Shown here: piece after piece, positions 229-36,021 of the stretch
How the letters are laid out: each line of letters opens with the position of its first letter
How positions within the stretch are numbered: position 1 is the first letter of the stretch
From: Heyndrickxia acidiproducens DSM 23148
GTDB lineage: Bacteria > Bacillota > Bacilli > Bacillales > Bacillaceae_C
NCBI RefSeq assembly: GCF_000374345.1
Contig: NZ_KB893982.1
Location: 1 to 64,000, forward strand
Reading direction: 5' to 3'
Length of the DNA: 64,000 nucleotides
Notes under the pieces: model-generated
What the model saw: only the letters and a program-made list of their open reading frames with translations
What the model was told of the DNA's origin: nothing
Databases searched by the model: none
Program-made: the position numbers and the translations under genes

Positions 229-506
229 AAAAAGGGTTCCCCATCCTATGAAAGGACGGGGAACCCGCGGTGCCACCTTTATTAGCTACATCAGCCCAGC
301 TTTAGCGGTATCAAAAACACTTCTTTAATACCCGCCTTTTGTAACGATAAGGCATTCGCCAAAGCCTACTTCATAATCGTTTCAGTTTGGAAGCTCGGAA
401 GTCCATTCACCTGCACCTCATCACCGGTTTACACCCGCCACCGGCTCTCTTTGGAATCGATACAAGTTACTACTCTTCTTCATCGCCTGGAATGTTTAAT
501 TGATTA
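229..506 (-). promoter_or_regulatory. T-box riboswitch, tryptophan specifier, with terminator
   Basis: The minus strand carries the T-box motif AAGGTGGCACCGCGG (280 to 266), followed by a long terminator stem (266 to 234) and five Ts. A Stem I with GAGAGCCGG is upstream. Aligning the specifier loop with the Ser and Ile T-boxes of this window (codon, then NCYYCY, then GA) gives TGG at 405-403, hence tRNA-Trp. The controlled gene (trpS or a trp gene is expected) must lie beyond the intron, left of position 1. Confidence 0.88.
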
Positions 507-2788: not shown

Positions 2789-3062
2789 ATAGAACTGCAA
2801 CTCCTTTGATAGCTTACTTTCTAACCTATTTATCGTATCCCGCTGTTCCTTCCTGTATAGTACTTTAGACCTGTATACTTCTTTTAGCCAGATGAAAGCG
2901 ATTCAAGTTTTTTGCAAAATAGGCGAAAAGTCCTTGACATACCGTCGATCCGGCCAAAATATGACTAATTTGTGAATCATGAGAATGAAGATGGGTAACC
3001 CAACTATCAATGCCTAAATAATTTAGCATATAAAAAGATTTTAAAATTGTTCCATTTTTCCC

Positions 3063-3097: not shown

Positions 3098-3372
3098 CAA
3101 AGAGCAAGTGAAATCGACAGACACAAGTCATGATGAAGAGGGCGCCTTGCAAAAAGCCTCAGAGAGTCGGTGGTTGCTGCGAACCGATGCTTTTGCAAAT
3201 GCAATGCCTAGCGCTTCTGAACTGGCCGGCTGAAATAACAGTAGGCTGTCCCGGCATACAACCGTTATCTGCTTACGAGGCTGCAGATATTTTGCAGTAA
3301 AAGAGGGTGGCACCGCGTCTTCACGCCCCTCATAACAAGAATCCGTCTTGTTATGGGGGGCGTTTTATTTTT
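3098..3372 (+). promoter_or_regulatory. T-box riboswitch, serine specifier, with terminator
   Basis: A Stem I with AGAGAGTCGG, the T-box motif AGGGTGGCACCGCG (3304-3317) and a terminator stem (GCCCCTCATAACAAG paired with CTTGTTATGGGGGGC, then T-rich) precede the aminotransferase/serA pair. The specifier codon reads AGC (3210-3212), a serine codon, which fits the biosynthetic genes downstream. Uncharged tRNA-Ser should favour antitermination. Confidence 0.92.
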
Positions 3373-20795: not shown

Positions 20796-21078
20796 CAAAT
20801 AATACGAACCAATACTTTTCAAAATCAATGACGAGAAGAGTAGGCCAGGGAACTTGTCCCCCAGAGAGTTGGTGTTTTGCTGAAAGCCAATGTTCAAGCC
20901 CTTTCCGAAGATCACCTCTGAGATGCAAAGCTGAAACGATAGTAGGCTTTGACGGATTGTCCACCGTTAGAAGGAACACGTATGATGGTACGTTGACTGG
21001 AGTGCTGCAGTTTTTATCTGCAGAATTAGGGTGGTAACGCGAGCAAACTCGTCCCTTTATTTGGGGGCGGGTTTTTTA
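20796..21078 (+). promoter_or_regulatory. T-box riboswitch, isoleucine specifier, before brnQ
   Basis: The leader has Stem I with AGAGAGTTGG, a specifier loop reading ATC (20911-20913) followed by ACCTCTGAG, the T-box motif AGGGTGGTAACGCG (21028-21041) and a terminator (ACTCGTCCC paired with GGGGCGGGT, then Ts). An Ile codon fits control of a branched-chain amino acid transporter. Confidence 0.9.
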
Positions 21079-28173: not shown

Positions 28174-29421
28174 TTAATTTGAATGGGCTCCGATACGCCG
28201 GACAGTTTTGCGATATGTTGCGTTTTCCGGCTGCACCGCTTTATCAGCCGGAGATTTGATGATAAGTGTGAGCAGAAAGGAGATCAGGCATAATATCATG
28301 ATGGCGTTGAATGTTGGCATAAATCCACCTAAAACAGAGGCAATGACGGATCCTGATAATGCGCCGATACCAAAGCCCTGGTAGATGACCGCGTAGTTTC
28401 TGCTTTGGTTTTTTAATCCAAAGTAGTCTGCGACAATTGCCGGAAACACGGTGACATTTCCGCCAAAGCAGAAGGCAATCGCTGCGACACAGATGAAGAA
28501 TAAAGCATAGTTCAGTTGAACATAACTTAATATGGAAACAGCTATTGCAGTTACGAGCAAGGTGCCGGATACAACCCGCATCCGCCCGACATGGTCAGAC
28601 AAACTGCCAAGGATAATCCTTCCGATTGTATTGAAGATCGCAATTAATGCCACTGCATTGCCTGCGGTCGCCATATCCAGGCCAACAAGATGTGTCCCAA
28701 TATCTTTTGCCAGGCCAATTAAATATAAACCGCTCATGCAGGCTGTAAAGAAAATCACGAATAAGAGCCAGGATTGCCGTGTTTTCAGCATTTCTTTCAC
28801 AGAGAAATCTTTTCCCTTCCCCATTTCAGCGTTTCGCGAACCGGCTTCTGTTTCGATTGCGGCTTCTTTTACAAGGAAAGCCCCTCCCGCAATCATCACA
28901 ATTGCGATTAATCCCCAGCAGATAAAGGCTTGTGTAACCCCTAAATTTTCGAGAACCGCACTGTTAACAAACTTGAAAACCAGGCTTCCTGTACCATATG
29001 CACCAACAGAAATTCCTGACATCAACCCTTTTTTCTCCGGAAACCATTTCATGATATTGGACAATGAAGTGATATATGCCGTCCCGTCCGCATAACCGAC
29101 AACCAACCCGGCGAGAAGGTACAACATCCATAATGACGGGGCCATTGAACTCAGGATTAACCCGCCGCCCAGCAGCAGCCCTGAAAAAACAATTAAACGG
29201 CGCAGCCCCCATTTTTCCTGAAGCTTTGCAGCGAATAAAGTGGAAACCGCAAGCGCCAAGCTTAAAATCGAAAACGTAGTGGATACCGCGCTCAATTGCC
29301 AGCCAAACTTATCCACAAGCGGCTGATTAAATAAGCTCCATGTATAAACCGTTCCAAGACCCATCTGCACAATGATTGTACCCAGGACGATCAAACTGCG
29401 GTTTGCTTTTCTTTCCTTCAT
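28174..29421 (-). CDS. OFA-family major facilitator (oxalate/formate antiporter-like)
   Basis: This 415-residue, twelve-helix carrier has the family signature GTVYTWSLFNQPL near the N-terminus and GLLLGGGLILSS afterwards. It is closest in type to E. coli YhjX, whose gene is switched on by the pyruvate-responsive YpdA/YpdB system. Here a LytS/LytT pair of the same class lies immediately upstream on the same strand, so a small carboxylate such as pyruvate is the likeliest signal or substrate (inference). The start has AAAGGAGGAG upstream. Confidence 0.88.
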   Translation of the reverse strand: MKERKANRSLIVLGTIIVQMGLGTVYTWSLFNQPLVDKFGWQLSAVSTTFSILSLALAVSTLFAAKLQEKWGLRRLIVFSGLLLGGGLILSSMAPSLWMLYLLAGLVVGYADGTAYITSLSNIMKWFPEKKGLMSGISVGAYGTGSLVFKFVNSAVLENLGVTQAFICWGLIAIVMIAGGAFLVKEAAIETEAGSRNAEMGKGKDFSVKEMLKTRQSWLLFVIFFTACMSGLYLIGLAKDIGTHLVGLDMATAGNAVALIAIFNTIGRIILGSLSDHVGRMRVVSGTLLVTAIAVSILSYVQLNYALFFICVAAIAFCFGGNVTVFPAIVADYFGLKNQSRNYAVIYQGFGIGALSGSVIASVLGGFMPTFNAIMILCLISFLLTLIIKSPADKAVQPENATYRKTVRRIGAHSN

Positions 29422-29463
29422 GCCCTCTCCTCCTTTTTCTCACGTTCCTTTTCTACAGTGAAA

Positions 29464-29508
29464 AGTATAGTACGAAAATAAAGAGAGAAACCATTTCAGG
29501 AATGAAAT
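29464..29508 (-). promoter_or_regulatory. Putative LytT-dependent promoter of the OFA gene
   Basis: A -10 element TATACT (29469 to 29464) has no recognisable -35. Instead an inverted repeat ATTTCATTCCTGAAAT (29508 to 29493) is centred about 43 bases upstream of the predicted start. Its half GCGATTTCAT resembles the YpdB half-site GGCATTTCAT that I recall from E. coli. Binding by the LytT next door is inference. Confidence 0.4.
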
Positions 29509-29609
29509 CGCTTTAAATAGGCATAAGCGGTTAAGAGAAACGCATAGATGACCCATTTGGAAGGGGCATAAAGCAGGCGGTGGAAAGGAAACAGCGGAAG
29601 CCTGGACAA
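29496..29609 (-). CDS. Possible 37-residue membrane peptide between lytT and OFA gene
   Basis: A TTG-initiated frame reads SRLPLFPFHRLLYAPSKW and then one hydrophobic helix (VIYAFLLTAYAYL) with a basic tail. GGGATGG is a poor ribosome site. It lies between lytT and its presumed target permease, the place where small partner subunits of MFS carriers sometimes occur, but I see no proven family match. Confidence 0.3.
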   Translation of the reverse strand: MSRLPLFPFHRLLYAPSKWVIYAFLLTAYAYLKRFHS

Positions 29610-29631
29610 TCCATCCCATTCAGGCTTTCGT

Positions 29632-30381
29632 TTACAAATGCATCAGCTGTTTAAATGCCTTCATGTTTCTTCTGCTTACTGGAACTTCCGCGTTCAAACC
29701 GCTCAACCGCAGCAAATAAGTTTGATTGAACCAGGGCACAATTTCACGGATCTTTGTCAGGTTTACAATATAGGACCGATGGCAGCGATAAAACAAATCC
29801 GGCGGCAGATGCGTCTGGAATTCAGAAATGTTCATCGGCATCACATATGTTTCCTCGCGCGTGTAGACGATCGTGGTTTTTTCCCGTGCCTCGCAATAAA
29901 AAATATCATTGGCATCGGTCACAATAATCTTTTCGTCTTTCCGTAAATTGACCCGTTTTGTCCCGGGTGAATTTTCTTTTTCTAACGGAGAAGCGGTCTC
30001 TTCACGGCTATTCCTATCTCTTTGATAAGCGGCCTCCAATCTTTTTAGTGTAGCGGCCAGCCTTTTTTCATCGTAAGGTTTCAAAATATAATCGAAAGCT
30101 TCCAGTTCAAATGCCTGGACAGCATGCTCCTTATAAGCCGTTGTAAAGATGATATAAGGTTTATGTGCAAACTTGCTGATATTGCCCGCCAAAAGCATAC
30201 CGTCAAGAGAAGGAATATTAATATCGAGAAATATGACATCTGTTTCATTTTCCTGCAAAAATTTTAATACGTCCAAGCCATCTTCAAAGCAGTCTGTAAC
30301 CTCAATATTGCTGTAAGTTTCGATCAAATATTCCAGTTCCTCACGTGCCGGTATTTCGTCCTCTACTATAATTGCCTTCAT
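29632..30381 (-). CDS. LytTR-type response regulator
   Basis: This response regulator of about 249 residues has a receiver domain (phospho-Asp in [11 protein letters not shown] at about residue 52, switch Thr in [10 protein letters not shown] and Lys in [11 protein letters not shown]) joined to a LytTR DNA-binding domain ([12 protein letters not shown]). ATG 30381 follows AAAGGTGAG; a GTG two codons earlier is possible. It overlaps the histidine kinase gene by about 41 bases. The orthologous B. subtilis LytT activates the pftAB pyruvate carrier; here the adjacent OFA gene is the obvious target. Confidence 0.92.
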
Positions 30382-32056
30382 GTTCACTCACCTTTGGAAT
30401 CTCAAAATATACTTCCGTCCCGGGCTCAAGCCTTTTAATTACCAAGCCTTTTCCATAAATCAGCTTGACACGCCGGTAAACATTGTACAGGCCAATCTGC
30501 GTGACCGGCGCATTATCCTGGTACACATGCTCAATCACTTCTTCCGGAATGCCTGCTCCTGTATCTTTTACACTGATACGGACCCTGTCCCCGATATCTT
30601 TGACAGCAATCGTCACGACTCCGGGCCCCTTTATTTTCAGAACGCCATGATTAATGGCATTTTCGACAAGCGGCTGGATCATCAGGCTTGGAATACGGAC
30701 GGCTACTTCGTCAATCTCATATTCTACCTGAAGGCGGCTGCCGAATCTTGCTTTTTCAATTTCAATATAATCACGAACTTGCTGCAACTCTTTATGGATA
30801 TCGATAAATTCATCGTTCAGTTCAAGATTATAGCGCATGAATCCGGATAAATTCATGATCAGCTGCCTTGCTTTCCCTGGATTCCTGCGCGTTGTGGAGG
30901 CAATCGCATTCAGAGAGTTAAACAAAAAATGCGGATTGATCTTCGTCTGCAGGGCTTTCCATTCCGCCTTATTTGCCTCTTCCTTAATTTCTTCGATATG
31001 CGACACTTCCATTAAAGTTGAGATAATTTGAGCAAGCCCGATTGCCATTGTCTGCAAAGAATACGTAATCTTATTGGCTTTCCGGTAATAGATTTTCAGC
31101 GCGCCTGTTACCTCATCCCGTTCTTTCAGGGGAATAATCAACAAGCATTGGATTTGCGGGGTCTGTTGGTCCTGAATATGATTGCGGATTGTAATTTCCC
31201 CGCTTCTGATTGCAGACTTTGTCAAATCACTGATAATCTCATGGCCGATTTGGTACCGTTCTTCCCCAAAACCGACATAGGCAAGGATTTTTTTTGTATC
31301 GGTGATCGCGACCGCATCGGCTTTTATATCCTCTTTGATAATCGTACAGATTGTTTTCAGCGATTCGGTCGTGATCGAGCGAAAATAGGGCAATGTTTTG
31401 TTGGCAATATCAAGTGCCAGTTTTGCCTGCTTAGCTGCAACAAACTCCTTCTCATTCTCAACACTTTTAATGAGAAGAACAATGAAGCCAATATTGACTT
31501 CTCCAAGAATCATTGGAAAAGCAATCTTTGAGACAATTTCCTGGCCGATTGAAAACGGATGGGAAAAAGCCAGAATCAATAGCATCGTCAATACTTCACA
31601 AAACATTCCGGCGCCAATACCGACAAACCAACGCCAAGAGTCCTTTACTTTCCTGCTGATCAGGCCCGAAATAATCCCGGCGACAACACTGCTGATCAGG
31701 CACGGAAAGGATGTAATACCGCCAATATCAATGAGGTAACGGTGCAGGCCCGAGATCACTCCCGTCGTAATGCCAACCCAGGGGCCAAACAAAATCCCGC
31801 CCGAAACAATTGCAATGATCCGAACGTTGACAATCGAGCCGTCTACTTTTATCCCGGAATAAGTGCCAAAAATGGCAAAGCTGCAAAAAACGGTTGTGAT
31901 AAAACATAATTCAAATACAGACGGCCGTTCTTTCTGAAAAATTTCCTTGAAGCGCGGAATTCTTGTGATGAAAAATAAACAGGTAAATAGCAGTGCAGCC
32001 CTTTCAAACAATTGGAGCAATATTTGAAGTGATGTTTCCACATCCGGGACCCCCAT
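30341..32056 (-). CDS. LytS-type sensor histidine kinase
   Basis: Up to 571 residues. The N-terminal 5TM-LYT membrane sensor (about 10-210) is followed by a GAF-like domain (about 225-350). A His_kinase domain follows, with the phospho-accepting histidine in [16 protein letters not shown], and then an HATPase domain with [10 protein letters not shown] and GAGIPEEV. The start is uncertain: ATG 32056 has no ribosome site, while GTG 32041 lies after GGGGG. In related LytS and YpdA proteins the sensor responds to pyruvate or membrane potential. Confidence 0.92.
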
Positions 32057-32246: not shown

Positions 32247-32546
32247 ATGTACAAGGTACCGAAGCATAATAAACATTTTTCTCACTGCATATTTCCGGGA
32301 TACCGCTGGTGCGGGCCGGGATGCAGCGGGCCGGGGGCTCCTACTAATGATGTGGATGCCTGCTGTATGCGCCATGATCTTTGCCTCAAGCGGGGGCGGT
32401 CCGTCTGTGAATGCGACAGCGCAATGGTTGAATGCCTGCGTACCAAGATGAATCCGTATACCAGGAAAGGCAGGCAAGCTGCGGTCATTTACCGGGCGAT
32501 GCGGCTAAAAAGACTGTTCAGCTGCGGCGGGGGCAGGTTTGGTTAA
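32247..32546 (+). CDS. Small phospholipase A2-like protein
   Basis: This 99-residue, basic, cysteine-rich protein has a calcium-loop-like WCGPGCSGPG and the PLA2 catalytic signature DACCMRHDLCL (His-Asp in the usual arrangement), followed by CECD that would supply further cysteines. The pattern is close to the prokaryotic/parvoviral VP1-type PLA2 fold. No signal peptide is evident, which is odd for a disulfide-rich phospholipase. GGGGTG lies seven bases before the ATG. It stands alone, divergent from lytS. Enzyme activity is inferred from motifs only. Confidence 0.7.
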   Translation: MYKVPKHNKHFSHCIFPGYRWCGPGCSGPGAPTNDVDACCMRHDLCLKRGRSVCECDSAMVECLRTKMNPYTRKGRQAAVIYRAMRLKRLFSCGGGRFG

Positions 32547-34280: not shown

Positions 34281-35513
34281 TTATGCTAATTTTGAAACCG
34301 AGCTGATTGAATTATGCTGTTTCCCATCTGAAGTTTTCTTTGCCAATGTCAGCATTGCCAGGCAGGAGATACAGTAGAGTGCTGCAAGATAACCCATCGC
34401 CATTGACATTTGATAATGCTGGAGAATGAAGCCGACAAGCATCGGTGAAAAACCGCCTGCTGCACGCCCAAAGTTAAAAATCGTATTGGTAGCCGTACTG
34501 CGGACTTCAACCGGGAAATATCTGCTGATTAATGCCCCATATCCGGCAAACATCCCGTTTGAAAAGAACCCGACAATCGCACCGCCAATCAATACCCCGG
34601 CACTGCCGCTCGCATAAGCGTACAGAAAGACTGCCGTGGCCGATGCTAGAAGGAAAATGCCGTAAGCCAGTTTGATTCCAATCCGGTCAATCAATTGCCC
34701 GAATGCAAGCATACCGGCAATCATACCGACAGCTGTGCTGATCGTCCACAGCGCCGAGCTTGAGACAGACAGCCCCTGCGATTGCTGCAGCATAGATGGC
34801 AGCCAGATCATGAGCCCATTGTATCCCGCGATCTGTACGGTTGCCATAATCGCCAATGCTGCTGTGGTTGCCGCTGTGCGCGGTGTTGCAAACAGTTGAA
34901 TTAACTTGCTTTTTTCCGCTTTTTTGGCTGTCCGTTTTTGTTTCTGGGCAGCCAGCCATTCCGGGGATTCATCTAAATTTTTACGTACGAGATAAGCAAA
35001 TATAACCGGAATGATGCCGACGAAGAATAATCCTCTCCAACCCCATGCCGGCAGGACAACCGCGCTGATAAGTGCCGCAATGATGACGCCAAACTGTGCG
35101 CCGATGCTGACATAAGAAGATGCCCTGCCCTGTTTGTTTTTCGGCCACGCCTCCGCAACCAGCGCCATCCCAATGCCGTACTCCCCGCCGGCACCAAGGC
35201 CCGCAATGAAACGAAATACGTAAACCTGCTCAATACTGGTTGCCAATCCGGTTAGTGCAGTGCCGATTGCGAAAAGGAAAATGGTATACGTAAAAACTCT
35301 GACTCTGCCAAATTTATCTGCCATGATTCCGAAAACCATGCCGCCAACAAGCATGCCGAGGTTGGTAATGGAAGAGATAAAGCCGCCCTTTGTCATATCA
35401 ATGTGGAAATTGGCAATGATCATTGACATGGCAAAGGAAATGAACATGATATCCATGCCTTCCAATGTCAAGCCTATAACAGATGCTGCAACTGTTTTAC
35501 TGCGATAATTCAT
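34281..35513 (-). CDS. MFS metabolite:proton symporter under PyrR control
   Basis: This 410-residue, twelve-helix carrier of the AAHS/sugar-porter-like MFS branch has the loop 2-3 motif GIMADKFGRVRVF and the FRFIAGLGAGGEYGIG helix 4 motif. Sequence alone does not give the substrate. Its leader is a PyrR-type attenuator (35588-35676), which strongly suggests a pyrimidine or precursor such as orotate or uracil (inference). ATG 35513 lies eight bases after AAGGAGC. Upstream in-frame codons fall inside the leader and were rejected. Confidence 0.88.
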   Translation of the reverse strand: MNYRSKTVAASVIGLTLEGMDIMFISFAMSMIIANFHIDMTKGGFISSITNLGMLVGGMVFGIMADKFGRVRVFTYTIFLFAIGTALTGLATSIEQVYVFRFIAGLGAGGEYGIGMALVAEAWPKNKQGRASSYVSIGAQFGVIIAALISAVVLPAWGWRGLFFVGIIPVIFAYLVRKNLDESPEWLAAQKQKRTAKKAEKSKLIQLFATPRTAATTAALAIMATVQIAGYNGLMIWLPSMLQQSQGLSVSSSALWTISTAVGMIAGMLAFGQLIDRIGIKLAYGIFLLASATAVFLYAYASGSAGVLIGGAIVGFFSNGMFAGYGALISRYFPVEVRSTATNTIFNFGRAAGGFSPMLVGFILQHYQMSMAMGYLAALYCISCLAMLTLAKKTSDGKQHNSISSVSKLA

Positions 35514-35574
35514 TTTATCGTGCTCCTTCCAAGCCTCACATGGACTTTGTTTTAAAAGAGTTTCCTGGAATCCG

Positions 35575-35676
35575 GGCAAAAATAAATGCCCTTTCCGTCC
35601 GAACCGGAAAAGGGCATGGTATATACAAACGTCCTATATTACCGCCTTTTCAGCCTCTCTGGACCGGATTAAAGGA
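35575..35676 (-). promoter_or_regulatory. PyrR-type transcription attenuator
   Basis: The minus strand carries GTCCAGAGAGGCTG (35664 to 35651) within a CCTTTAA...AAAAGG stem, matching the PyrR-binding anti-antiterminator of Bacillus pyr leaders. It is followed by the terminator GCCCTTTTCC / GGAAAGGGC (35615 to 35588), whose sequence is also very similar to the pyr attenuators, and then a T-rich tract. This would stop transcription when PyrR holds UMP or UTP. Confidence 0.88.
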
Positions 35677-35688
35677 AATACATTTGTA

Positions 35689-35717
35689 TTCATAATAGCA
35701 TGTATAGCAAGAATGGG
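35689..35717 (-). promoter_or_regulatory. Promoter of the PyrR-attenuated transcript
   Basis: On the minus strand TTGCCC and TATTAT are 17 bp apart, just before the attenuator. Coordinates are good to a few bases. Confidence 0.6.
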
Positions 35718-35813
35718 CAATATTAATTTGTAAAATCATGTCGCTTTTACAAATAAGTATGAATGAACCCCACTCTGTTCTAATTTTTTGTGTAGGATAG
35801 CGTCATTTGAAGG

Positions 35814-36021
35814 ATGAAAGACATTTCGATTCAAATTTTTACCTGTAATGTCTTTCATCAGGCCAATGAAAGACATCTTTAACCGAATTTTTACCTGCGA
35901 TGGCGTTCATCAAGCCAATGAAAGACATTTCGATCCGAATTTTCACCCGCAATGGCGTTCATCAGGCCGATGAAAGACATTTCGATCCGAATTTTCACCC
36001 GCAATGGCGTTCATCAGGCCA
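35814..36021. repeat. 52-bp tandem repeat array 2 (four units)
   Basis: Units start at 35814, 35866, 35918 and 35970, exactly 52 bp apart. The junction kernel is TTCAT-N7-ATGAA. The first junction has nine-base perfect arms (GTCTTTCAT/ATGAAAGAC). Later junctions have GGCGTTCAT on one side, the arm used in array 1. It lies between the pyr-type promoter and the 3' end of the asparaginase gene. Confidence 0.92.

Follow-up and report, generated by a model that had tools for sequence, protein, structure and literature searches.

Translational riboswitches that work through an anti-Shine-Dalgarno sequestor are a known general kind of RNA switch, and PyrR itself is said to act on translation: Fields and Switzer reportedly described, in 2007, PyrR-dependent translational repression of pyr genes without a preceding attenuator in Mycobacterium smegmatis. 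PyrR senses uridine nucleotides (PMC7430163), and the passages that deal with the Bacillus subtilis protein describe it as a transcription attenuation protein (PMC7430163; PMC4347634). A further source, in the part concerned, treats PyrR regulons and pyrimidine transporters as categories (PMC3766115), and an excerpt of another reports that PyrR sites adjoin SAM riboswitches in B. methanolicus, in one case before an MFS gene (PMC4342826). The orotate transporter OroP of Lactococcus is given as TC 2.A.7.21.4 in the portion of a recent record that names it (PMC12802215). Here we describe, in a stretch of 64,000 nucleotides from Heyndrickxia acidiproducens (hereafter, the window), an MFS carrier gene whose mRNA is likely to be checked by PyrR at two points in series, and whose product is likely to import a pyrimidine precursor. 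The open-access literature that we searched, outside which most subscription papers lie, yielded no report of a PyrR site pair acting at two levels, of a sequestor of the class II kind described below worked by PyrR, or of an MFS orotate carrier. Two-layer PyrR control in the Bacillales appears to be new.

All elements of the leader lie on the minus strand of the window, in the order candidate promoter, site 1, terminator, site 2, nine bases and ATG. The candidate promoter (35692–35720), TTGCCC-17-TATTAT with a TG before the second hexamer, is weak, one such sequence being found where 1.6 are expected by chance. PyrR site 1 (35639–35680) is the anti-antiterminator binding loop, and GTCCAGAGAGGCTG (35651–35664) falls within its region. 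Together with the terminator it matches the Rfam PyrR family RF00515 over 35579–35679 at 54.3 bits against a gathering score of 54 (E value 1.1e-4, for 64 kb and 4227 families); our own model of the site-1 loop, R1, gives it 57.7 bits, with the window among its 37 training rows. The intrinsic terminator hairpin GCCCTTTTCC...GGAAAGGGC (35586–35617, -18.0 kcal/mol) is followed by a T-rich tail at about 35578–35585, and an antiterminator duplex of -12.5 kcal/mol can form between the 5' strand of this hairpin and the site 1 3' strand. Site 1 is an ordinary PyrR attenuator.

The initial annotation had recognized site 1 and the terminator in this leader and had overlooked its more unusual part, a second PyrR loop over the Shine-Dalgarno sequence. 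This site 2 (35523–35562) matches RF00515 below threshold, at 30.7 bits, and has a local fold of -7.1 kcal/mol. Its lower stem is CUCUUUU/GAAGGAG, with the Shine-Dalgarno sequence AAGGAG (35523–35528) inside the 3' strand, and the carrier gene (34281–35513, 410 amino acids) starts nine bases past it, with its ATG at 35513. The site 2 loop of the window, CAUGUGA, is one base longer than that of the other 31 of 32 distinct leaders of its class (class I, alignment A3), so that PyrR affinity may be reduced here and the predicted effect of site 2 in this strain could be weaker than in relatives. No terminator was found 3' of site 2 in the window, nor by eye in 17 leaders, and for this reason we rejected the reading of site 2 as a second transcription attenuator. 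Upstream, between the carrier promoter and an asparaginase gene, lies a 52-base tandem repeat of four copies with 86% matches (35814–36021).

The host genome encodes PyrR, which scores 268.4 bits against a cut-off of 138 with the equivalog model NF003549. RF00515 has four matches in this genome, namely before pyrR, between pyrR and pyrB, before a uracil permease gene and before the carrier gene; those in the uracil permease and pyrR leaders score below the cut-off of 54, at 51.2 and 49.2 bits. The loop GUCCUGUGAGGC, common at site 2, also occurs in this genome in the leaders of pyrR and of the uracil permease gene. The idea of the carrier as a substitute for PyrP had to be abandoned, because the genome has a separate NCS2 uracil permease gene with a PyrR site of its own; the carrier is therefore an additional member of the regulon and not a PyrP replacement.

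The carrier itself belongs to Pfam MFS_1 (PF07690; 185 bits, cut-off 33.4). A Pfam scan lists MFS_1, Sugar_tr, MFS_4 and OATP only, the Xan_ur_permease domain of NCS2 proteins being absent. Among NCBIfam models the best is TIGR00895, aromatic acid/H+ symport, at 275.8 bits, under its cut-off of 418.55. The label 'AAHS-like' is thus apt and a plain 'AAHS' would say too much: judged by these sequence models, the protein is a relative of the aromatic acid/H+ symporter family and not a filed member of it. A sequence search against solved structures found only remote chains as nearest (GlcP, E value 8.7e-14, and relatives of SLC22 and SV2) and yielded no clue to the substrate.

Several other features of the window were recorded. 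A second MFS transporter gene, for L-lactate (SfMCT model, 376.1 bits, cut-off 320), lies at 28174–32056 on the minus strand beside genes for a response regulator of the LytTR type (186.2 with the LytR model, short of the 375 required) and for a sensor kinase that is LytS-like by eye. A cysteine-rich open reading frame of 99 amino acids at 32247–32546 on the plus strand carries a phospholipase A2-like motif, with Phospholip_A2_4 at 25.5 (cut-off 23.9) and Phospholip_A2_1 under its cut-off (29.8 vs 32.1). Three T-box leaders are present, at 249–492 (minus), 3121–3333 (plus) and 20819–21059 (plus). The window start (1–142, minus) takes in one edge of a group II intron.

To follow the leader across relatives we combined several scans. 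The best 80 of 243 relatives in named genomes are 74–82% identical to the carrier and come from many Bacillales genera. A scan of the order at an E value of 1e-75 found a relative in 24 of 397 genomes, in 18 of which, the window's own among them, the identity is at least 73%, and a scan of the family at 1e-60 found one in 13 of 34 genomes, among them G002, which holds paralogues only. At 1e-75 the phylum search of 398 genomes returned one relative besides the window, 38% identical, whose neighbours, inspected by eye, were nothing telling. The 80 named, 11 family and 13 order loci and the window give 105 orthologue leaders before 92 distinct proteins, some loci representing the same genome twice.

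Among the named loci, which are the best 80 of 243, model R1 finds site 1 in 79, the exception being L068, whose leader is only 85 nt long, and it is present in all 13 further orthologues of the order set. RF00515 exceeds its cut-off at site 1 in all 11 family loci (54.9–66.8 bits); the 37 loops used to train R1 belong to this very set, so the independent evidence for site 1 is that of Rfam. In the two tandem paralogues of G002, 53–57% identical, RF00515 has no match (none in 2 of 2). A terminator-like hairpin follows in all 85 leaders, of 92, in which site 1 was located by pattern, taking the best hairpin per leader without a shuffled control, and the antiterminator duplex has a median of -13.2 kcal/mol over the 85, likewise without a shuffled control. 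Across the named loci (best 80 of 243), the loop pattern matches 152 times within the 800 bases before the gene and 7 times elsewhere, counting both strands of 562 kb. The initial annotation had held that a PyrR attenuator precedes an MFS gene and had named leader-less orthologues as what would speak against it. None turned up, and the claim is borne out by the Rfam score over cut-off, the terminator, the PyrR of the genome and the leader kept by orthologues.

By comparison, no family of neighbouring genes recurs in more than 7 of the 80 named loci (best 80 of 243), counting open reading frames of at least 90 amino acids within about 3 kb, some loci being incomplete; the carrier gene stands alone. 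Since orthologues keep the attenuator and no neighbour family recurs widely, the data support an attenuator that travels with the gene rather than with its neighbourhood. An apparent insertion was seen in one class II leader (L009), where a Bacillaceae-1 RNA (RF01690, 59.5 bits) occupies 2937–3004 on the plus strand, opposite in strand and between sites 1 and 2, with both PyrR sites still in place.

Site 2 is present in all 105 leaders, 102 of them by pattern (90 of 92, plus 12 of the 13 in the order set) and three by eye. In these three, the lower strand is changed (L053), the upper stem has a compensatory GUA/UAC (L126), or the site is displaced, an insertion of some 300 bases parting the switch from the start codon (L081). 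All 11 family loci show a second RF00515 match at site 2, of 29.6–43.9 bits (E values 0.008–4.1); here as in the window the score is below the cut-off of 54, and the model also spans the terminator, which site 2 does not have. At an E value of 10 in 64 kb the window's site 2 escapes R1, which gives many site-2 matches at 0.1 to 10 in the named loci (best 80 of 243). Having been trained on site 1 only, R1 is too sharp to score site 2 well, so that Rfam, pattern and alignment carry the evidence for it. Cells with a change on either side of a pair at once are more frequent than in the shuffles (in each class, 1 of 500 shuffles is as high) and the number of pairs so changed is not above them (229 and 337 of 500 as high); covariation at site 2 is limited.

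Two forms of site 2 are revealed. In class I, to which the window belongs (37 of 90 leaders, 32 distinct), the distance from the start of the loop pattern to the ATG is at most 45 bases, and the 3' strand holds the Shine-Dalgarno sequence, mostly as GAAAGGAG or GGAAGGAG (alignment A3, 32 distinct leaders). Its stems are paired in 89.1% of cells, compared with at most 64.8% in slid controls, pair 5–41 being unpaired in 24 of the 32 rows. In class II (53 of 90 leaders, 47 distinct) the pattern starts 92–147 bases upstream, and behind it stand AAUGGA and, across a variable loop, UCCAUUC, often with AAAGAG after it. The class II stems are paired in 95.9% of cells (at most 57.8% in slid controls), and UCCAUU can pair with the AAUGGA beside the loop in 97.2%. 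The same UCCAUU has alternative partners downstream, either GGUGGA after the Shine-Dalgarno sequence (6 of 6 pairs) or GAAUGGAUU across the start codon (8 or 9 of 9 pairs), and 31 of the 47 distinct leaders reach one of the two downstream pairing counts, a tally made without a chance control. The class II 5' strand CUCUUUU is also complementary to the conserved AAAGAG downstream of UCCAUUC (alignment A2), and at L042:2892–3012 these strands read CUUCUUUU/AAAAGAAG, a hint of a further alternative helix.

Strict pattern scans of the order placed every match of the translational type on the carrier gene. In 397 genomes the class I pattern has 13 matches, of which three are class I sites, all on the carrier gene, and one is the carrier gene's class II form (L106). 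The other nine (8 sites) fall in other leaders without a credible gene start directly behind the loop: by reading of open frames, one site stands before a pyrB-like frame that starts 59 bases on, another before a frame that resembles a uracil permease and would have to be read through a leader, and the remaining matches have directly behind them only frames of 10–43 amino acids. The class II pattern, run on 358 of the same genomes, gave nine matches, all at carrier gene loci. These patterns are narrow and overlook some true sites, among them that of the window, so that looser sites may exist on other genes.

The alternative pairings of class II were followed by folding each leader with and without the loop, by means of an energy penalty. 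With the loop enforced, pairing of UCCAUUC with the ribosome region has a median of 0.82, against 0.05 without the loop, and the element shifts away from its upstream partner towards that region in 43 of 44 leaders (L041, L080 and L083 lack UCCAUUC, hence 44 of 47). Accessibility of the ribosome site falls in 40 of 47 leaders and rises in seven, with a modest change in the mean unpaired fraction, from 0.45 to 0.38. When the middle segment of each leader was shuffled 15 times as a control, the real drop was larger than the shuffled average in 33 of 47 leaders (P = 2e-4). In L077, L091, L094 and L098 the ribosome region is paired in both states. These shifts support the sign of the effect that we infer, repression on binding of PyrR; its size is not readable from folding.

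We placed the two forms on a maximum-likelihood tree of 99 proteins. Class I forms one clade (35 rows, support 99/96), whereas class II does not lie on one side of any branch (0 of 200 bootstrap trees), and the out-group rows fall outside both classes. Support for the forks by which class I comes to lie inside class II is moderate (92/83, 81/0 and 90/92), and L053, L081 and L126 are counted there as class II without a pattern match in the class II range. With class I as a single clade and class II not, class II is probably the older form, and direct occlusion of the Shine-Dalgarno sequence probably arose once. Genera are mixed in the tree, rows of Paenibacillus, Heyndrickxia and Neobacillus appearing in several places, which suggests that the gene and its leader may have been transferred together. 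The same two site sequences occur in G033 (L014), a genome of the window's genus, and in Heyndrickxia ginsengihumi (L059).

We propose that, when uridine nucleotides are plentiful, PyrR on site 1 would prevent the antiterminator from forming, so that the terminator would end transcription before the gene. Transcripts that escape would expose site 2. In class I, as in the window, PyrR bound there would hold the Shine-Dalgarno sequence in the loop stem and ribosomes could not start. In class II it would lock the strand GAG adjoining AAUGGA, and UCCAUUC would then leave its upstream partner and pair with the ribosome site or start codon. When pyrimidines are short, both checks would open and the carrier would be made, most likely importing an acidic pyrimidine precursor, orotate being the first candidate. 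The fuller account, in which one sensor would act twice on one mRNA as a steep switch reserved for an MFS orotate importer, beginning as a sequestor and turning once into direct occlusion, we favor with somewhat less assurance than the two PyrR checks themselves.

The chief competing account of the leader holds that only site 1 works, by plain transcription attenuation, and that site 2 is what remains of a duplicated attenuator, or a weak Shine-Dalgarno hairpin to which PyrR does not bind. The Rfam scores of site 2, sub-threshold in the window as in all 11 family loci scanned, and the extra base in the window's loop would both agree with it, but such a site would have been kept in 105 of 105 leaders, with some compensatory changes, in two forms, each extending to the ribosome site, and with no terminator behind it in the window or, by eye, in 17 leaders; we regard this account as improbable. 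A chance match or an annotation artefact has in its favor that the window's Rfam score is only 0.3 bits above the cut-off. It is already refuted, and its probability is negligible, because the leader recurs before orthologues, 92 distinct ones having both sites in fixed positions ahead of this gene.

The hint given by the leader, a pyrimidine compound, holds in kind and is sharpened towards orotate by gene clusters around more distant homologues; the exact substrate is unproven. A homologue 41–43% identical to the carrier occurs in five genomes of one genus of family f15, presumably Sporolactobacillaceae judging from the place of Scopulibacillus. In four of them (G180, G374, G296 and G047) a carbamoylase/hydantoinase-type amidase lies near the homologue (three scanned, L136 by eye), and in three of the four an IclR-type regulator adjoins it (two scanned, L136 by eye). 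The cyclic amidohydrolase, scanned whole in L143 and L140, passes both the dihydroorotase model TIGR00857 (350.5 and 341.6, cut-off 279.05) and the allantoinase model TIGR03178 (381.5 and 368.9, cut-off 357.85). In the other two genomes it was identified by eye or from a fragment (L134; loci L141 and L145), and in the fifth, G154, it is the only such gene, seen by eye and further off (L142). The scanned cluster amidases pass NF006771, an allantoate amidohydrolase subfamily model. Dihydroorotate dehydrogenase exceeds its cut-offs in the cluster of G047 and in that of G180, there besides the one of the pyr operon, and in G180 the carrier homologue stands about 500 bases after pyrE of that operon. 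The dehydrogenase, dihydroorotase and carbamoylase carry out the steps from orotate to aspartate known from Clostridium oroticum. We note L133 with L143, L137 with L140, L136 with L145 and L134 with L141 as candidate orotate-catabolic clusters of f15, not every member being seen in each. Closer to the carrier, the 53–57% paralogues of G002 (L112, 4904–10352) stand on either side of a gene that resembles uridine phosphorylase (153.9 bits, cut-off 280.3), with a PucR-type regulator beside it, and may form a cluster for nucleoside utilisation. A 39% homologue in G335 has a single PyrR attenuator (31.5 bits, E value 6e-6).

Because the 41–43% homologues lie with orotate-type catabolic genes, orotate is the likeliest substrate, and we put the chance that the carrier takes orotate or a near relative at about even, the assignment being unproven because closer paralogues flank a nucleoside phosphorylase. 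These G002 paralogues, with their PNP/uridine phosphorylase-type gene near a PucR-type regulator, are what would speak for a pyrimidine nucleoside or base such as uridine or uracil instead, and membership in a PyrR regulon suits any pyrimidine. Yet a uracil permease gene with a PyrR site before it is already present in the genome, and the homologue clusters hold orotate-type enzymes. The first-helix acidic pair, which matters for acid transport in aromatic-acid carriers, points the same way: the carrier and the orotate-cluster homologues keep the first-helix E/D-G-x-D, whereas EGMD has become QGMN in the 53% paralogue, which has thus lost the pair. We consider a nucleoside or base unlikely, if still a serious contender. 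A much smaller chance goes to allantoin or another ureide, with PyrR control serving nitrogen or carbamoyl salvage. The passing of TIGR03178 by the amidohydrolases of L143 and L140 and of NF006771 by the scanned amidases would fit a ureide, but the same amidohydrolases also pass TIGR00857, dihydroorotate dehydrogenase is in the cluster in G180 and G047, the G180 cluster follows pyrE, and PyrR, in the account given of it, senses uridine nucleotides and not nitrogen (PMC7430163).

If the proposal is right, tandem sites at two levels show how one sensor tightens a switch, and classes I and II, across 92 distinct proteins, offer natural variants for comparison. The carrier of many bacilli would also gain a lead to its function, a pyrimidine precursor with orotate first.

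The leader resembles the pyr attenuators of B. subtilis, as far as the portions describing them go (RF00515; PMC7430163), in the consensus loop, bulge, antiterminator and terminator of site 1, and in having PyrR and the pyr genes in the same genome. It differs from them in that the gene it precedes is a stand-alone MFS gene and a second PyrR loop lies at the ribosome site. OroP shares the proposed substrate with the carrier and differs in its TC 2.A.7 number, the two being set apart by TC class only; to our knowledge, TC 2.A.7 is not an MFS class. Like the mycobacterial PyrR repression reported for pyr genes, class I has a PyrR loop that includes the ribosome binding site; here, unlike there, this loop is the second of two sites, is found in the Bacillales and is probably derived from a class II switch. 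Class II resembles the sequestor riboswitches in that a single strand pairs either with an upstream partner or with the ribosome site. Its ligand, unlike theirs, would be a protein, PyrR, and in some class II clades the same strand masks the start codon and not the Shine-Dalgarno sequence.
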